The notes below the pieces were generated by a model. That model did not search any database, was not told the DNA's origin, and worked only from the letters and a program-made list of their open reading frames with translations. This document shows, piece after piece, positions 3,827 to 48,564 of a stretch of DNA of 64,000 nucleotides; position 1 is the first letter of the stretch; every line of letters begins with the position of its first letter. The stretch is from Halorubrum salinarum (lineage in GTDB: Archaea; Halobacteriota; Halobacteria; Halobacteriales; Haloferacaceae), in assembly GCF_013267195.1 (NCBI RefSeq), contig NZ_CP053941.1, forward strand, positions 186,001 to 250,000. The letters are read 5' to 3'. A program made the position numbers and the translations under genes.

Positions 3827-4786
3827 ATGAGTCAGTTCGACCGGTCCGGCGGCGTCGCCCCCGACGGCGAGCGCGCGGACCGCATCGAGGGGGCCGACCC
3901 CGCCGCGGCCCCGCGGACCGAGTCGCGGATCCCGCCCGCCGAGGTATTCGCGGTCCTCGGCAACGAGACGCGGGTCGAGACGCTCCACGCGCTGCTCGAC
4001 CTCGGCGGGGACGAGTCGCCGGTGAGCTTCTCCGAGCTGTTCGAGCGGGTCGACGCGACGGACAGCGCGAACTTCAGCTACCACCTCGACCAGCTCACCG
4101 GTCACTTCGTCCGGCGGCGCGACGACGGCTACGAGTTCCGCGCGCCCGGGCGGAAGGTGGTGAGCGCCATCTTCACCGGCACCCTCACGGAGCGGGCGCA
4201 GTTGGGCTTCTTCCCGGCGGACGGCTCGTGTCACGCCTGCGGCGGCGACCTCCACGCCTGGTACGTCGACGACACGCTCTCCATCGGCTGCGTCGACTGC
4301 GGCGCGATCCAGGTGAGCTACCCGTTCCCGGCGGGCGCGCTCGACGGCCGGTCGACCGACGACCTGCTGGACGCGTTCCACCACTACGTCCGCCACCACT
4401 ACTGTCTGGCCGCCGACGGCGTCTGCCCGGAGTGTGCCGGCACGGTCGAGACCGACCTCGTGCGGACGCCCGACGAAGCGGACCAGGCCGTCGCGGTCGA
4501 ACACGCCTGCCGGCGCTGTAGCTACGACCTCCGGTCGACGGTCGGGCTCCTGCTGCTCGACGACGCCGACGTGCTCCGGTTCCACGCGGACCGCGGCGTC
4601 GACCTGAGTTCGGCGCCGTTCTGGACGTTCGACTGGTGCGTGAGCGACGCCGCGACGACGGTCGTCTCGGAGGAGCCGCTCCGCGTTCGCGTGACGGTCG
4701 CCTGCGGGGGCGACGAGATGCGCGTGGGCGTCGACGAGACCGGGACGGTCGTCGAGACCGACGGGCCCGAGTTCGACGCGGTTTAG
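3827..4786 (+). CDS. ArsR-like winged-helix regulator with zinc-ribbon C-terminal part
   Basis: 319 aa. Residues about 35-115 form an ArsR-type winged helix (PPAEVFAVLGNETRVETLHALL; NFSYHLDQL recognition helix). It is followed by two zinc-ribbon-like segments, CHACGGDLHAWYVDD-CVDCG and CPECAG-CRRCS, and a C-terminal domain that may bind a ligand. This layout is common in haloarchaea. The ATG at 3827 is preferred over an upstream in-frame codon because the promoter palindrome lies 14-29 bases before it. It is divergent from the aldehyde dehydrogenase and is the obvious candidate for the TACC-N4-GGTA binding protein. The ligand is unknown. Confidence 0.85.
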   Translation: MSQFDRSGGVAPDGERADRIEGADPAAAPRTESRIPPAEVFAVLGNETRVETLHALLDLGGDESPVSFSELFERVDATDSANFSYHLDQLTGHFVRRRDDGYEFRAPGRKVVSAIFTGTLTERAQLGFFPADGSCHACGGDLHAWYVDDTLSIGCVDCGAIQVSYPFPAGALDGRSTDDLLDAFHHYVRHHYCLAADGVCPECAGTVETDLVRTPDEADQAVAVEHACRRCSYDLRSTVGLLLLDDADVLRFHADRGVDLSSAPFWTFDWCVSDAATTVVSEEPLRVRVTVACGGDEMRVGVDETGTVVETDGPEFDAV

Positions 4787-4920
4787 CCGCCGGACGACCC
4801 CGCGGCTGGGCGGTTATTCGAAAGGAAGACAAGAGAGAGCGGACCGCCGCGAGTGCCCACAGCCTCGCTCCGTCGCCGGCGGCCCGGGCGCCCGGAGCGG
4901 AAACCGGCGCGTCGAGCGCG

Positions 4921-5520
4921 TTACTCGAACAGCTCGACGGCCTGCTCGTAGCGGTGAGAGGGCTCGTTCCAGTCGACGACCTCGAAGAAGTTGTCGACGA
5001 ACTCGCCGCGGGCCGGGCCGTAGTCGTGGTAGTAGGAGTGCTCCCAGACGTCCAGCGCGAGGATCGGATGGCCGCCCCAGATCGCGCCCTGGTCGTGCTT
5101 GTCGACCACGACGTTGCGGAGCTGGTTCGAGAACGTGTCGTACACTAAGAGCGCCCAGCCGCTGGCCGCGGAGGCCGCCGCCTCGAACTCGCCCTTCCAG
5201 GCCTCGTACGAGCCGAAGTCCTCCTCGATGCGGTCGGCCAGCTCACCCTCGGGCTCGTCGCCGCCCGCCGGCGACATGTTCTGCCAGAACAGGTCGTGGA
5301 GGATGTGGCCCGAAGAGTTGTGGGTCACGTTGCGGATGGCTCCGCCGGACGACGAGAAGTCGCCGGCCTCGCGGTTCGCTTCGAGCGTCTCTTCGGCGGC
5401 GTTCCAGCTGTTGACGTACCCTTGATGGTGGGTGTCGTGGTGCCATTCGAGCACCTGCTCGGAGATGTGCGGTTCCAGCGCGTCGTACTCGTACGGCAGC
5501 GGATCGAGTTCGTAGCTCAT
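4921..5520 (-). CDS. sod: Superoxide dismutase, Mn/Fe family (probably Mn)
   Basis: 199 aa, standard length. Converts superoxide to oxygen and hydrogen peroxide in the cytoplasm. Metal ligands are His27 (WHHDTHH), His75 (LHDLFW), Asp157 and His161 (LDVWEHSYYHDYG). Gln144 in KHDQGAIWGG occupies the place of the outer-sphere Gln of Mn enzymes, favouring Mn over Fe. Upstream lies a 366-base gap with an inverted repeat and an AT-rich island (see 5521-5886). Placement among respiratory genes fits its role. Confidence 0.97.
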   Translation of the reverse strand: MSYELDPLPYEYDALEPHISEQVLEWHHDTHHQGYVNSWNAAEETLEANREAGDFSSSGGAIRNVTHNSSGHILHDLFWQNMSPAGGDEPEGELADRIEEDFGSYEAWKGEFEAAASAASGWALLVYDTFSNQLRNVVVDKHDQGAIWGGHPILALDVWEHSYYHDYGPARGEFVDNFFEVVDWNEPSHRYEQAVELFE

Positions 5521-5886
5521 GCGTTCACACGTACTCGCGGCACGGGTAAGAAGATTCTCTGTAGCGCATTCCAGTAAATCACCTGTTATTTCTGAACGCA
5601 GGTGAAATCCCCTAAAACAGCACTCAGATCCGATTATAAAAGAATACTATATCGGGGTTGAACGATTCGGGGTTCCGTAATCGTGATGCGTACCATCTCT
5701 GATCAAGGCGAGGTGCCGTGACCGCCTCCGCGTCGAGCGCGAGCAGGGCGGCGCGGGTGCGGTAATAACCGATCCGGCAGGGGCGACTCGTTCGGTCGCC
5801 GCGGCGCGCGCGACGGTGGCAGGGATCCGTTGCGTGCGACGGAAATCCCGACCGAGTTTTTAGTAGTCGGGGTGGTATCTACACCC
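5521..5886. promoter_or_regulatory. Intergenic promoter region between sod and the GNAT gene
   Basis: 366 bases without a recognisable gene. It contains an inverted repeat TCACCTG-N13-CAGGTGA (5579-5585 and 5599-5605). An AT-rich island at 5633-5653 has TATA-like boxes on both strands (TATAAAAG forward, GATATAGTATTC reverse). If the reverse box is used for sod, the inverted repeat falls in a roughly 100-base leader. The forward box has no convincing gene, as the first ATG at 5686 opens only ten codons. The GNAT gene has its own TATA-like TTTTTAGTAG at about 5857. Confidence 0.5.
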
Positions 5887-6636
5887 ATGGACCTACGCGA
5901 AGCAACCGCCGCAGACGTCGACGCGGTCCGGTCGGTCGCCCGCGAGTCGCTCGTGGCGTCGTACGGGCACGCCGTCGACGAGGCGCTGTTGGACGAGGCC
6001 GTCGAGGAGTGGTACGACGCCGGGGACCTCGGCGACGACGTGGAGGACGACGACGCGGTGTTCCCGGTCGCCGTGGTTGACGGGGTCGTCGTCGGGTTCG
6101 CGGAGAGCTACGTCGTCGGCCGCCGCGAGCGCGTCGGCGAGATAGACTGGCTCCACGTCCACCCCGACCACCGGGGCTCGGGCATCGGCTCGGCGCTGTT
6201 AGAGCGGGTCGAGTCGGCGCTCCGCTCGGCCGACGTCGACCGCATCGAGGCGCGCGTCCTCGCCGACAACGAGGCGGGCACCGAGTTCTACGAGCGCGAG
6301 GGGTACGAGCTCGCCGGCGAGCGCGAGGTGGACATCGGCGGCGAGCTGTTCGCGGAACGGGAGTTCCGGAAGCAGGTCGGGCGGCTCAGGGGCATCTCCG
6401 AGGCGACGTACCAGACCGAGGACGGGGAGACCGTCCACGTCGCGTTCGACGAGAGCGACCGCGGCTCGCAGGCGCCGTTCTACGTCGCGTACGTCGACCC
6501 GGACCACGAGCGCCGCTACGGCTACCTCTGTGGCAACTGCGAGGGGACGGACGTCGCCATCGACACGATGGACCGGATGGAGTGCCGCGACTGCGGGAAC
6601 CGGCGGAAGCCCGCGCGGTGGGACGCGGCGTACTGA
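5887..6636 (+). CDS. GNAT acetyltransferase fused to a DUF5816 zinc-ribbon domain
   Basis: 249 aa. Residues 1-160 are a GNAT N-acetyltransferase: beta-4 VDWLHV-like strand (IDWLHVHPDHRGSGIGSALLERV), with the acetyl-CoA pyrophosphate loop RGSGIGSA. Residues about 165-249 are a haloarchaeal DUF5816-type module with two CxxC pairs (CGNCEGTD and CRDCGNRRKP) that probably bind zinc. The start at 5887 follows a TATA-like TTTTTAGTAG by about 30 bases and begins MDLREAT, typical of this family; the upstream in-frame extension is unlike protein. The substrate is unknown. Confidence 0.88.
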   Translation: MDLREATAADVDAVRSVARESLVASYGHAVDEALLDEAVEEWYDAGDLGDDVEDDDAVFPVAVVDGVVVGFAESYVVGRRERVGEIDWLHVHPDHRGSGIGSALLERVESALRSADVDRIEARVLADNEAGTEFYEREGYELAGEREVDIGGELFAEREFRKQVGRLRGISEATYQTEDGETVHVAFDESDRGSQAPFYVAYVDPDHERRYGYLCGNCEGTDVAIDTMDRMECRDCGNRRKPARWDAAY

Positions 6637-6665
6637 CGGGTCGCCGACGGAACGGCGCGACCGGC

Positions 6666-7658
6666 TCAGAGCGTCTCCTTCACGCCGATGACGCGCTCCT
6701 CGGCCTCGCGGCCGGGGTCCCACTCGCTCCCGTCCCGGTCCGACTCGCGGTGCTCTTCGACGGTCCGCGCCATCGCCTCGTCGACCGGCGTCGACTCCCA
6801 GCCCAGGTCGGCGAGCGCGCGGGTGTCGAGCAGGTGCGGGTACTCGCGGTAGAGGGTGAACTCCTCGGGGTCGAGGCCGCCGGCCGCCAGCGCGTCCGCG
6901 CTCGCGGGGACGATATCGACCTCGGTGTCCGCCGCGTCGGCGATAGTCTCCAGCGTCTCCCGCAGCGTGAGCGCCCGTCGGTCGCCGACGTTGTACGCCG
7001 TGCCCGGCTCGCCGCGCTCGGCGACGATCCGCAGCGCGCTCGCGACGTCCTCGACGTACGCCCGGTGCCAGAGGTTCTGCCCGTCCCCGGGGACGACGAC
7101 GCGGTCGTGGGTGAGCACGCGGTCGATCCAGTAGTCGAGCCGCTCGGTGTAGTCGTACGGGCCGTAGACGATGCACGGGCGGACGGCCATCGCGTTGACG
7201 CCCGCCTCGGCGGCCGCGAACACCTCGCGGTCACCCTCGGCCTTCCGGTTGCCGTACGTCTCGTGGTCGTCGTCGACCGCCTGCGCGTCGGTACACGGCT
7301 CCAGCGGCGTTTCGCCCTCGCGCTTGGGAATCTCCTCGGCGGCGTAGCTGGAGCCCGACGAGATGTAGACGTAGCCGTCGACGTCGGCGAACACGTCGGT
7401 CGCGGTCGCCACGTCTGCCGGGTGGTACGCGACGCAGTCGATCACGACGTCCGGTTCGACCGACAGCTTCGCGGCCCGGAGCGCGGTCTCGTCTTTCCGG
7501 TCGCCCTCGACGTGGGTCACCCGGTCGTCGTCCGCGAAGGGGTTCTCGTGGTTCCCGCGGTTGAATATCGCGACCTCGTAGTCGTGCGCGAGCAGCTCCG
7601 CGACGGTGTGTCGGCCGATGAACCGCGTGCCGCCGACGACGAGCGCCGTGTCTGTCAT
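6666..7658 (-). CDS. NAD-dependent epimerase/dehydratase (extended SDR)
   Basis: 330-residue extended short-chain dehydrogenase/reductase. The N-terminal Rossmann motif GGTRFIG (residues 9-15) binds NAD(P), and the YGNRK segment supplies the Tyr-x-x-x-Lys pair, followed by RPCIVYGPYDY. Such proteins act on nucleotide sugars or, in the CSP41 branch, bind RNA; the sequence alone does not decide. It converges with the GNAT gene and is upstream-adjacent to a 47-residue membrane protein gene on the same strand. Confidence 0.88.
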   Translation of the reverse strand: MTDTALVVGGTRFIGRHTVAELLAHDYEVAIFNRGNHENPFADDDRVTHVEGDRKDETALRAAKLSVEPDVVIDCVAYHPADVATATDVFADVDGYVYISSGSSYAAEEIPKREGETPLEPCTDAQAVDDDHETYGNRKAEGDREVFAAAEAGVNAMAVRPCIVYGPYDYTERLDYWIDRVLTHDRVVVPGDGQNLWHRAYVEDVASALRIVAERGEPGTAYNVGDRRALTLRETLETIADAADTEVDIVPASADALAAGGLDPEEFTLYREYPHLLDTRALADLGWESTPVDEAMARTVEEHRESDRDGSEWDPGREAEERVIGVKETL

Positions 7659-7718
7659 ACCTGGGATCGGACGAGCGACGTGAAAAGCGTGGCCGAACCG
7701 GAATTCGAACCGTCCGGC

Positions 7719-7862
7719 TCAGTCGCCGTCGCCGCGGGGGCCGTCGCCGCGCCACCGGCGGTAGAGGAGGTACGCGACGCCGAGGCCGATCCCCCAGGTG
7801 CCGACGCCGAACACCGCGAACGCGGCCCCGTAGAGGAACTCGCCGAGCGGAACGCCGAACAT
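7719..7862 (-). CDS. Small one-helix membrane protein, 47 aa
   Basis: A single hydrophobic helix (GEFLYGAAFAVFGVGTWGIGLGVAYLLYRRW, with flanking charges) and a short Gly/Asp-rich tail. The start at 7862 is chosen because a TATA-like GTTTATG lies about 28 bases upstream, and the longer in-frame extension is Arg/Pro-rich and unlike haloarchaeal protein. It is divergent from the zinc-ribbon membrane gene at 7940. No family recognised. Confidence 0.6.
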   Translation of the reverse strand: MFGVPLGEFLYGAAFAVFGVGTWGIGLGVAYLLYRRWRGDGPRGDGD

Positions 7863-7939
7863 ACCGGAGTTCGGCGCGTCCGCCACATAAACGCTCCGAG
7901 AGAGGTAGGTTCTCGGGGCGGGAGGTCGTACGGGCGGCC

Positions 7940-8419
7940 ATGTCCGAACGCACTCGTCGGCGGCCCTGGCTCGCCGCACTGCTCGCGCTCGTCGTCTCGG
8001 GACTGGGTCACGCGTACCTCCGCCGGTGGGCCCGCGGGCTCGGATGGTACCTGGCGGTCGCCGCGGCGGTGTTCGTGTTCGTCCCGGAGTCCGCGATCTC
8101 GGGCGCGCTCGCGGGCGACCCGCCGGCGGTCTCGGAGGTCGCGCCCGCCGCCGCGGTCGTGGTCGCCAGCGTGGTCGACGCGTACGTCGTGGCGGTCCGC
8201 CACAACCGGGGGTCAGAGCGGTACCGCGACCGCGGACGAGCGACGGACTCGCCGGCCGCGGTACCCGGTCCCGACGGCGCGTCCGCGGAGGTGGCGGGCG
8301 GGGAGTCGGAATCGGAGTCAGGGGAGACGATCCGCTGTCCCGAGTGCGGGAGGGAGACCGACCCGACGTTCGACTTCTGTCAGTGGTGCGCCGAACCGGT
8401 CGGTGAGGGCGACGCGTGA
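7940..8419 (+). CDS. Membrane protein with C-terminal zinc ribbon
   Basis: 159 aa. The N-terminal half has hydrophobic segments near residues 10-24, 34-53 and 66-84. An acidic Ser/Glu-rich linker leads to a C-terminal zinc ribbon with CPECG and CQWCAEPVG. This layout (short membrane part plus zinc ribbon) is common in haloarchaea and of unknown function. It may share a promoter region with the divergent 47-residue membrane protein. Confidence 0.8.
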   Translation: MSERTRRRPWLAALLALVVSGLGHAYLRRWARGLGWYLAVAAAVFVFVPESAISGALAGDPPAVSEVAPAAAVVVASVVDAYVVAVRHNRGSERYRDRGRATDSPAAVPGPDGASAEVAGGESESESGETIRCPECGRETDPTFDFCQWCAEPVGEGDA

Positions 8420-33107: not shown

Positions 33108-33282
33108 GGGGCTGTGGCCAAGCCAGGCATGGCGACTGACTCCAGAGGCTTGCGCCCGGGACGACACTCCAGACTGATATACCGAGCGGCCGACTGATCA
33201 TCGGTCGTGTTGACGACCCTCTGGAGTTCCGAGGCGCACCGGAGATATCAGTCGATCGGGGGTTCAAATCCCTCCGGCCCCA
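33108..33282 (+). tRNA. tRNA-Trp (CCA) with a 101-base intron
   Basis: The cloverleaf is complete once the intron is removed. The acceptor GGGGCTG pairs with CGGCCCC, the D stem is GCCA/TGGC, the anticodon stem ACTGA/TCAGT encloses CT-CCA-GA, and the T arm is GGGGG-TTCAAAT-CCCTC with discriminator A at 33282. Exon 1 ends at G37 (33145) and exon 2 begins at A38 (33247), the canonical haloarchaeal intron position. CCA is not encoded. TATA-like CTTTATCC lies about 40 bases upstream. Two more imperfect copies of the 3' end follow downstream. Confidence 0.95.
33146..33246 (+). ncRNA. tRNA-Trp intron, probable box C/D guide RNA
   Basis: In haloarchaea the tRNA-Trp intron is known to act as a box C/D RNA guiding 2'-O-methylation of the pre-tRNA itself (positions 34 and 39). 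Here the intron contains two CUGA boxes (33174-33177 and 33194-33197) and a C-like UGACGA (33211-33216). These are consistent with that role; the remaining C box is degenerate. The ends can fold with the exons into a bulge-helix-bulge splice site. Confidence 0.65.
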
Positions 33283-33460
33283 TTTCTTGCCGTCGCGAGC
33301 ACTCTCGCGAGCGACGGCGACGTGCTGAGGAGGAATTTGAACCCAGCGGAGGAGCGGAGCGAAGTCCGCGTGGTTCACAATCCCTCCGGCCCCACTTCTT
33401 GCCGTCGCGAGCAACACCGCGAGCGACGGCGACGGCGGTTCACAATCTCTCCGACCCCAG
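33283..33460 (+). repeat. tRNA-tail element: two further copies of the tRNA-Trp 3' end with hairpins
   Basis: Downstream of tRNA-Trp the T-arm/acceptor tail recurs at 33372-33394 (GGTTCACAATCCCTCCGG...) and, more diverged, at 33437-33459. The first two copies are each followed by the same GC-rich hairpin (TTGCCGTCGCGAGC...GCGAGCGACGGCGACG). Between copies 1 and 2 sits an insert with an inverted T-arm (ATTTGAACC at about 33344) and an inner stem GCGGA/TCCGC around GGAGCGGAGCGAAG. The same plan occurs after the initiator tRNA at 48340-48463. Confidence 0.8.
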
Positions 33461-48126: not shown

Positions 48127-48264
48127 CGGACGGAACGGGATTGAGGCCGGGCATCGATTTCGGTCGCCACCGCCGGGGCGCGCGACCGCCGCGGACGCGT
48201 GGACGAATCGCACACCGGCGTCGGGATCAGAACCCTTAACAGTCGCACGCGATTTTGCTACGAT

Positions 48265-48339
48265 AGCGGGATGGGATAGCCAGGAGATTCCGCCGGGCTC
48301 ATAACCCGGAGATCGGTAGTTCAAATCTACCTCCCGCTA
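48265..48339 (+). tRNA. Initiator tRNA-Met (CAT)
   Basis: AGCGGGA pairs with TCCCGCT, giving the A1-U72 end pair typical of archaeal initiators. The anticodon stem CCGGG/CCCGG contains three consecutive G-C pairs next to loop CTCATAA, the other initiator hallmark. The T arm is GGTAG-TTCAAAT-CTACC. CCA is not encoded. A TATA-like CCTTAACAG lies about 30 bases upstream. The aIF2-beta gene follows at 48565. Confidence 0.96.
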
Positions 48340-48463
48340 TCTTCTGTCGACGACCGTGAACGCCGAGCGTAGCGAGGCGTGAGCGCCGTCGTCGACGAGA
48401 TAGCCTCGGAGAAGATTTGAACCAGGGAACGGAGTGACCGTGGTTCAAATCTACCTCCCGCTA
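48340..48463 (+). repeat. tRNA-tail element after the initiator tRNA
   Basis: A GC-rich cruciform (GTCGACGAC...GTCGTCGAC with inner ACGCC/GGCGT) is followed by an inverted repeat GATTTGAACCA (48414-48424)-N16-TGGTTCAAATC (48441-48451). The element ends in an exact 21-base copy of the initiator 3' end (48443-48463 equals 48319-48339). After each copy comes (T)CTTCTG. The insert shares the core GGAG-A-ATTTGAACC...CGGAGYGA...CGTG with the element after tRNA-Trp. Confidence 0.85.
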
Positions 48464-48564
48464 CTTCTGGCCGGCTGCTACCCTCCCAGCGTCGTCTCTC
48501 TCCGCTCGGAGCCGCGGCCACCGAACCCGGAAGCGATTTCCGTCGCGCTGTCGTTCCCTCGGGT

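Follow-up and report, generated by a model that had tools for sequence, protein, structure and literature searches.

Directly 3′ of the initiator tRNA-Met (iMet) gene in the 64-kb window, the whole stretch of DNA analysed here and part of a haloarchaeal chromosome, is an insert of ~124 bp that closes with a repeat of the tRNA's own 3′ end. This raises the question of what kind of element carries the end of the gene behind which it lies, and how it came to be there. A sequence-only reading had described an exact 21-base copy of the iMet 3′ end, an 11-base inverted repeat with a 16-base spacer and the string (T)CTTCTG after both copies, and all three descriptions are accurate. The 21-nt sequence GTTCAAATCTACCTCCCGCTA has just two exact occurrences in the window, the two iMet tail copies of Table 1; the first runs into TCTTCTG and the second into CTTCTG. 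The arms of the 11-bp inverted repeat are at 48414–48424 and 48441–48451, with 16 bases between them. The head module behind the tRNA is conserved across related genomes, and its hairpin 1, TCGACGAC...GTCGTCGA around GCGTAGC, pairs back towards the tail. Loci of close similarity were found in Halorubrum and related genera.

Table 1. Features of the iMet and tRNA-Trp loci, in window coordinates
Feature	Position	Strand	Basis or remark
Initiator tRNA-Met gene (CAT)	48264..48339	+	ARAGORN; Rfam RF00005, 60.5 bits
iMet tail copy 1 (W), tRNA nt 53–73, GTTCAAATCTACCTCCCGCTA	48319..48339	+	Sequence comparison
iMet head module: T-rich trailer TCTTCTG, then hairpin 1	48340..48413	+	Fold −36.0 kcal/mol
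iMet inverted T-loop arm (W′), GATTTGAACCA	48414..48424	+	
iMet core 1 loop, GGGAACGGAGTGACCGTG	48425..48442	+	GGGA...GACC with ACGGAGT mini-hairpin
iMet tail copy 2, exact copy of tRNA nt 53–73	48443..48463	+	Empty-site comparison
Native trailer CTTCTG	48464..48469	+	Identical flank after tRNA in element-free congeners
tRNA-Trp gene with intron; unit of iMet kind behind	33108..33282	+	Rfam
Trp unit head module (GCCGTCGCGAGCACTCTCGCGAGCGACGGC hairpin)	33283..33331	+	Sequence
Trp unit inverted T-loop arm, GGAATTTGAACC	33332..33343	+	Sequence
Trp unit core loop, CAGCGGAGGAGCGGAGCGAAGTCCGCGT	33344..33371	+	Sequence
Trp tail copy 2, GGTTCACAATCCCTCCGGCCCCA, one extra C	about 33372..33394	+	Sequence
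Trp tail copy 3, GGTTCACAATCTCTCCGACCCCA	about 33437..33459	+	Sequence

Empty sites locate the insert precisely. The iMet unit is absent from most congeners: in most genomes of the genus CTTCTGGACGAACGCC or a closely related sequence comes directly after the iMet tRNA, and about 20 congeners have a CTTCTGG-type flank straight after the tRNA. Carriers have TCTTCTGTCGACGAC... after the tRNA, and their CTTCTGG-type flank does not begin until past the second tail copy. The insert therefore separates the tRNA from its native flank, and the right-hand copy runs into native DNA. Wherever native flank is visible, it carries on from the right-hand copy. On the simplest view, tail copy 2 would be the displaced original end of the tRNA, the new end having come with the incoming unit. 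The earlier suggestion of a target-duplicating element is supported, in that the unit acts like an insertion in which the tRNA end is duplicated, and the empty site is present in congeners. In one genome (G015), the iMet locus has an insertion with a TnpB/IS1341-like protein (judged by eye) that breaks the right-hand tail copy.

The iMet insert is a member of a Halobacteria-wide family found behind tRNA genes; the units are termed tRNA-tail cassettes here. A core-only pattern, consisting of the inverted T-loop arms plus the core and requiring neither acceptor bases nor tRNA adjacency, matched at least 120 stretches when 85,000 species genomes were scanned. Among the matches listed, all labels are Halobacteria or unclassified halophilic archaea, with one metagenome-assembled genome (MAG) labelled just Euryarchaeota. 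These stretches contain at least 125 elements, and 118 of the 125 listed have a same-strand tRNA 33–327 nt upstream, the distance from tRNA to left arm being 33–80 nt in most. The other seven consist of three in stretches that are cut off, one behind a tRNA missed by ARAGORN, one with a tRNA on the opposite strand and two (L130 and L166) in which a later insertion of 2–3 kb has parted the unit from its tRNA. Thus every listed element with a readable context is beside a tRNA, or has that tRNA's tail kept next to a later insertion.

The elements come from dozens of genera and stand behind tRNAs with 34 isoacceptor labels, and their ends follow the host, as the sequence-only reading had proposed for a shared element with a matched end. 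In the elements listed, the acceptor half of the right copy (12 nt) agrees with the adjacent tRNA at a mean of 10.8 positions, and 69 of 117 are perfect; when tails were shuffled among elements the mean was 5.5 and the maximum 6.2 (2000 shuffles). The outcome that the sequence-only reading had named as refuting it, a right-hand copy that fits a tRNA other than the neighbour, occurs in a minority of cases, namely as tRNA-Arg-type tails among the distal copies of tRNA-Lys arrays.

In a looser scan of 230 tRNA contexts, largely picked for carrying an element, 163 had elements, 214 in all. In the present genome a tail copy is found within 600 nt of 12 of the 45 tRNAs (13 with the tandem tRNA-Asp included), or about a quarter. 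A generic pattern matched in 20 of 24 sampled Halobacteriales genomes and in none of 124 genomes taken from elsewhere in the phylum. In ~1 Mb of sequence from these loci, 96 direct-inverted-direct triples are near tRNAs and two lie elsewhere; one of the two belongs to a tRNA missed by ARAGORN. Hairpins like GAGCGNAGCGAGC are widespread in these intergenic regions, and it might be supposed that the units are chance products or a compositional artefact of the G+C-rich palindromes common in haloarchaea. That supposition has next to no probability: reversed patterns gave no matches, swapping tRNAs in this genome gave tail copies at a mean of 0.48 tRNAs (maximum 2) against the 12–13 observed, triples are 96 to two in favour of tRNA neighbourhoods, and the sole match in the upstream control is the tandem tRNA-Asp pair. 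Chance and composition are ruled out by the reversed patterns, the tRNA-swap shuffles and the upstream controls. The pair in question consists of two tRNA-Asp(GTC) genes in close tandem (L024/L025); in another genome (G011) a tail unit follows the second tRNA-Asp(GTC).

Read from the tRNA outwards, the parts follow one another as W, head hairpin, W′, core hairpin and W, with W standing for tRNA nt 53–73; the units are gene-free and about 75–140 bp long. The limits of the duplicated block are the same at every tRNA: identity between the tRNA and the right copy leaps at G53 and drops after nt 73. It should be pointed out that in this profile the inner positions are selected for matching and the two limits are not. 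W′ comprises an inverted T-loop with a portion of the T-stem. In the family-wide profile it matches about nt 54–64 of the tRNA, with identity of 0.85, 0.71 and 0.55 at nt 62–64 and values near background from nt 65 on. A gapped test of whether W′ reaches the acceptor gave a weak effect (4.84 versus 4.21), and the iMet unit itself has a gapped match. The W′ base opposite G53 is usually T or G and not the complementary C (T 99, G 26, C 20, A 1). A search for compensatory changes in W′ in step with diverged right copies gave no clear signal.

The cores form several families with more than 100 distinct loops, and are common to different tRNAs and genera. The commonest is CAGGGA-stem-GACCGTG, whose stems show the compensatory pairs GCAGC/GCTGC, GGAGC/GCTCC and GCGCC/GGCGC; further families are CCCTGnnAGTCGCA..CGTCTnnCTCCG and AGACnnAG..CTnnGGGCGTG. 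T-rich trailers follow many tails, and right copies decay freely. At Leu-CAA the sequence past the right copy, CGCCGGGGTCC, is common to species, and the head after the tRNA is unrelated to this native flank. Tail units of another kind, whose hairpins are C-rich (CGCTCGCTTCGCTCGCG), are present in this genome behind Gly-TCC, Ala-CGC, Arg-CCT and Arg-GCG (L007, L013, L020 and L073). Their tail copy begins near ATCCC rather than GTTC and has an inverted acceptor ahead of it; such units are found inside Lys-TTT arrays as well.

Units stack in tandem. At tRNA-Lys(TTT), compared in 30 genomes of the window's genus, both the number and the order of units vary, and one genome (G026) has four identical tandem units of 111 bp. 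Six head types and five core types at this locus give 34 four-gamete sets; heads and cores re-assort freely. Ordinary homologous recombination or gene conversion could produce the swapping of modules at W′ as well as at W. Head loops are more alike within the same isoacceptor across genera (similarity 0.315) than between different tRNAs (0.184) or within the same genus (0.209); vertical inheritance also explains this link to tRNA type.

The window contains a second locus of the same kind. The sequence-only reading had noted a related element behind tRNA-Trp, and its core is indeed related; its tail copies, however, are not exact, having an extra C (GTTCACAATC). There are three of them, the first at 33262–33282, and a near-duplicate of the head module at 33395–33436 stands ahead of the third. 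In their tail copies, the Trp unit (33283–33459) and the unit at Thr-CGT (L005) of this genome share one and the same one-base insertion, GTTCACAATC. This suggests that unit parts are exchanged between different tRNAs within one genome. Some distal copies in the tRNA-Lys arrays are, as mentioned, tRNA-Arg-type tails; together with the GTTCACAATC shared by Trp and Thr-CGT, they indicate that material moves between tRNAs too.

Folding favours one strand. In 154 of 165 core hairpins the tRNA-sense strand is the more stable (mean −22.1 versus −15.7 kcal/mol). The iMet hairpin is strand-neutral, at −25.9 for the tRNA-sense and −26.0 for the opposite strand. Against shuffles, its core hairpin as DNA has a z of −5.1 and the whole iMet insert as RNA a z of −6.0, and in both cases no shuffle folded equally well. 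Apical loops were counted in perfect stems, as the stems contain tandem G-A pairs and a count over 3-bp stems is therefore uninformative; 16 of 26 are triloops and none are tetraloops. Cores of the form C(GNA)G number 86 and those of the form C(GNRA)G two. By established biophysics, GNA triloops are unusually stable in DNA, whereas the loops favoured in RNA are tetraloops of the GNRA or UUCG type. The counts point to selection acting on single-stranded DNA, though short of proof.

How do the units arrive? The reading preferred here, put forward tentatively and at slightly less than an even chance, is that the iMet insert is one copy of a gene-free cassette family that inserts directly 3′ of tRNA genes in Halobacteria by T-loop insertion. 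Strand exchange would take place at or beside G53/T54, within the universal T-loop sequence GTTCRAATC. The incoming unit would supply nt 54–73 and so rebuild the tRNA, and the old tail would be pushed outward to the right, much as at att sites or with integron cassettes. Only units with a matching tail would leave a working tRNA; the match between end and host is explained in this way, and no copying machine is needed. The catalyst would probably be a tyrosine-recombinase-type enzyme acting in trans, its substrate possibly the folded tRNA-sense DNA strand, as with integron integrases on attC, and arrays would grow and shuffle through recombination at W and W′. The sequences show the anatomy, the anchoring to tRNAs, the host match, the precise empty sites at iMet, the tandem arrays and the re-assortment at tRNA-Lys; where the strands cross, which enzyme acts, whether the DNA is single-stranded and whether single units move today are inferred. 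Insertion is supported by the empty sites, the fixed limits at nt 53 and 73, the host match, the triples, the re-assortment and identical tandem units at Lys and the Leu-CAA head, as well as by an integrase insert at the same place in L166 (see below) and by strand-specific folding. A duplex circle of 100 bp is physically awkward, and this counts against cassette insertion, as do the search of phage and plasmid collections, in which no unit in free, circular or plasmid/phage-borne form turned up, and the other accounts given above of module swapping and of loop likeness by tRNA type. A bolder version is doubtful, though to be taken seriously: that Halobacteria run an uncharacterised, integron-like site-specific recombination on folded single-stranded DNA, with T-loop-anchored arrays of gene-free hairpin cassettes at any tRNA and with tRNA 3′ ends repeatedly replaced. 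Cassettes could be added at any tRNA because every tRNA has GTTCRAATC.

Perhaps the units are only scars. Archaeal integrases favour tRNA 3′ ends (PMC8371274), the duplicated block of nt 53–73 is att-like, and an integrase fragment is found inside a tail copy in L166, so that each unit might be the remnant of a deleted or excised tRNA-targeting integrative element (of the SNJ2 type or with another integrase) and the tail copy its attR. This is unlikely. The unit is a continuous conserved double hairpin with no room for a lost body, its size is tight (as seen in the 33–80 nt between tRNA and left arm in most elements), and heads and cores recur across many genera in many combinations. Moreover, phage and plasmid collections gave no convincing unit match. 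In the plasmid collection no match covered more than half of the query, and in the phage collection none was halobacterial; blastn and IMG/VR scans gave chance matches in bacteria and one haloarchaeal viral contig. This contig, the sole halophile one with units (IMG/VR, L247), has them behind its tRNA-Glu, possibly in host flank, one good and one decayed. In these collections the attP of known viruses or plasmids likewise gave no convincing match to a unit. A phage or plasmid origin of the units was rejected on these grounds, namely chance matches and one contig with units behind tRNA-Glu. Integrase pieces occur among the units only within later insertions. The case is Haloferax marinum (L166, reverse strand 4482–6718), where a 2-kb insertion lies inside the tail copy behind tRNA-Gln, contains an N-terminal phage-integrase fragment (Phage_int_SAM, E 4.8e-5) and has near-identical units on both sides. 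Tail copies can apparently serve as alternative attB sites. In Haloterrigena salina (L130, reverse strand 4678–7940) a ~3-kb insertion separates tRNA-Val(CAC) from its tail unit; its 149-aa open reading frame is integrase-like by eye and has no Pfam match.

Replication itself might also build such structures. In template switching, i.e. fold-back copying or tandem inversion duplication, a polymerase would copy the tRNA end, flip and recopy it, leaving W-W′-W and a hairpin loop wherever it turned. That template switching creates and repairs hairpins is known (PMC8794818), the direct-inverted-direct order is seen at 96 loci, and identical tandem units occur, yet the explanation is decidedly unlikely. 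W′ matches the tRNA to about nt 64 and the right copy to nt 73; the right copy was therefore not templated via W′, which disfavours fold-back copying and leaves the tail-copying alternative of the sequence-only reading unsupported. Nor would it account for a head that is unrelated to the native flank at Leu-CAA or for cores held in common by different tRNAs and genera. More improbable still is that the hairpins are RNA structures selected by the host, which on read-through would aid termination or tRNA 3′ processing, or would make small RNAs. The better folding of the tRNA-sense strand, the compensatory changes in the stems of the commonest core and the T-rich trailers would all suit such a role. 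The units are nevertheless present at only 12 of 45 tRNAs of this genome (the tandem tRNA-Asp left out), the iMet unit is missing from most congeners, right copies decay without restraint, and the loops are not those typical of RNA, GNRA and UUCG tetraloops being absent.

Insertion of cassettes at the T-loop thus remains the reading preferred. No published description of such units was found in the open literature, to which the search was confined. Compared with integrons, integrative-element scars, MITE-like elements and REPs, the units fail on, or do not clearly show, at least one defining feature. What appears to be a visible repeat system at a sizeable share of tRNA genes in a whole class of well-studied archaea has no name that could be found in the open literature. 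The ends of tRNAs look like landing sites where hairpin pieces get inserted, stacked and swapped. If the units are self-mobile, tRNA genes are the targets of a gene-free cassette system and many haloarchaeal tRNA 3′ halves are imports. Such mobility, if true, would account for odd tRNA tail duplications, would give integrating elements alternative attB sites and would constitute a natural system for recombination on folded DNA. If they are immobile, the units remain, even so, structures next to essential genes that call for an explanation.

Several known systems share some of these properties. The tyrT locus of Escherichia coli has ~178-bp tandem repeats (rtT) behind one tRNA locus, each with a copy of the tRNA 3′ end. 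The likeness lies in tandem repeats behind a tRNA that carry copies of its end; the cassettes differ in occurring at many tRNAs across a whole archaeal class and in having inverted arms and interchangeable hairpin modules. An Rfam scan of the window gave tRNAs only and thus no homology to the rtT RNA family. REP/BIME sequences with their RAYT transposases are chromosomal hairpin repeats that lie dispersed in intergenic DNA, with no tie to tRNA sequence. They resemble the cassettes as hairpin repeats in which one strand is special and single-stranded DNA chemistry is possible, whereas the cassettes are restricted to tRNAs and have a foot sequence that varies with the tRNA, in place of dispersed extragenic palindromes footed by a RAYT tetranucleotide.

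Closer in habitat are the MITE, PATE and SMR elements of Haloquadratum, short gene-free repeats rich in hairpins that are mobilised in trans or by unknown means (PMC3119063). The units are likewise short, gene-free, hairpin-rich and haloarchaeal, but the Haloquadratum elements are dispersed and have no tRNA-matched ends, whereas the units lie behind tRNAs with a 21-bp tRNA copy. The target-independent ends and dispersed sites of MITEs were not found, as the arms follow the tRNA and 96 of 98 triples are near tRNAs. Archaeal integrative elements with tyrosine integrases that target tRNAs, such as SNJ2, pNOB8 and SSV (PMC8371274), also insert at the tRNA 3′ end, restore and duplicate it, and are flanked by the direct repeat. 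The units, in contrast, are too short for any gene, have no integrase, form a conserved double hairpin, reach several tandem copies and occur at nearly all isoacceptors. Between their repeats there is no integrase gene or element body, with 33–330 nt of hairpin sequence in 118 of the 125 listed elements.

The nearest comparison is with integrons, which in archaea have arrays of gene cassettes with attI and attC sites (PMC9668308). Differences are evident: no genes were found in the units, which consist of about 75–140 bp (typically about 100 bp) of hairpin sequence, no integron integrase is tied to them, the anchor is the tRNA T-loop with the motif GTTCRAAT and not GTTRRRY, and the arms match the host tRNA. 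As in integron arrays, however, tandem cassettes stand at a fixed anchor, the site is an imperfect hairpin with a variable loop, one folded strand is favoured, the right arm starts with G-TT, and heads and cores are shuffled. What might be likened to attC in the units is inverted T-loop arms, a variable loop, a biased mismatch position and a strand bias, around the motif GTTCRAAT. The units are not claimed to be integrons, but by analogy they may work like one.
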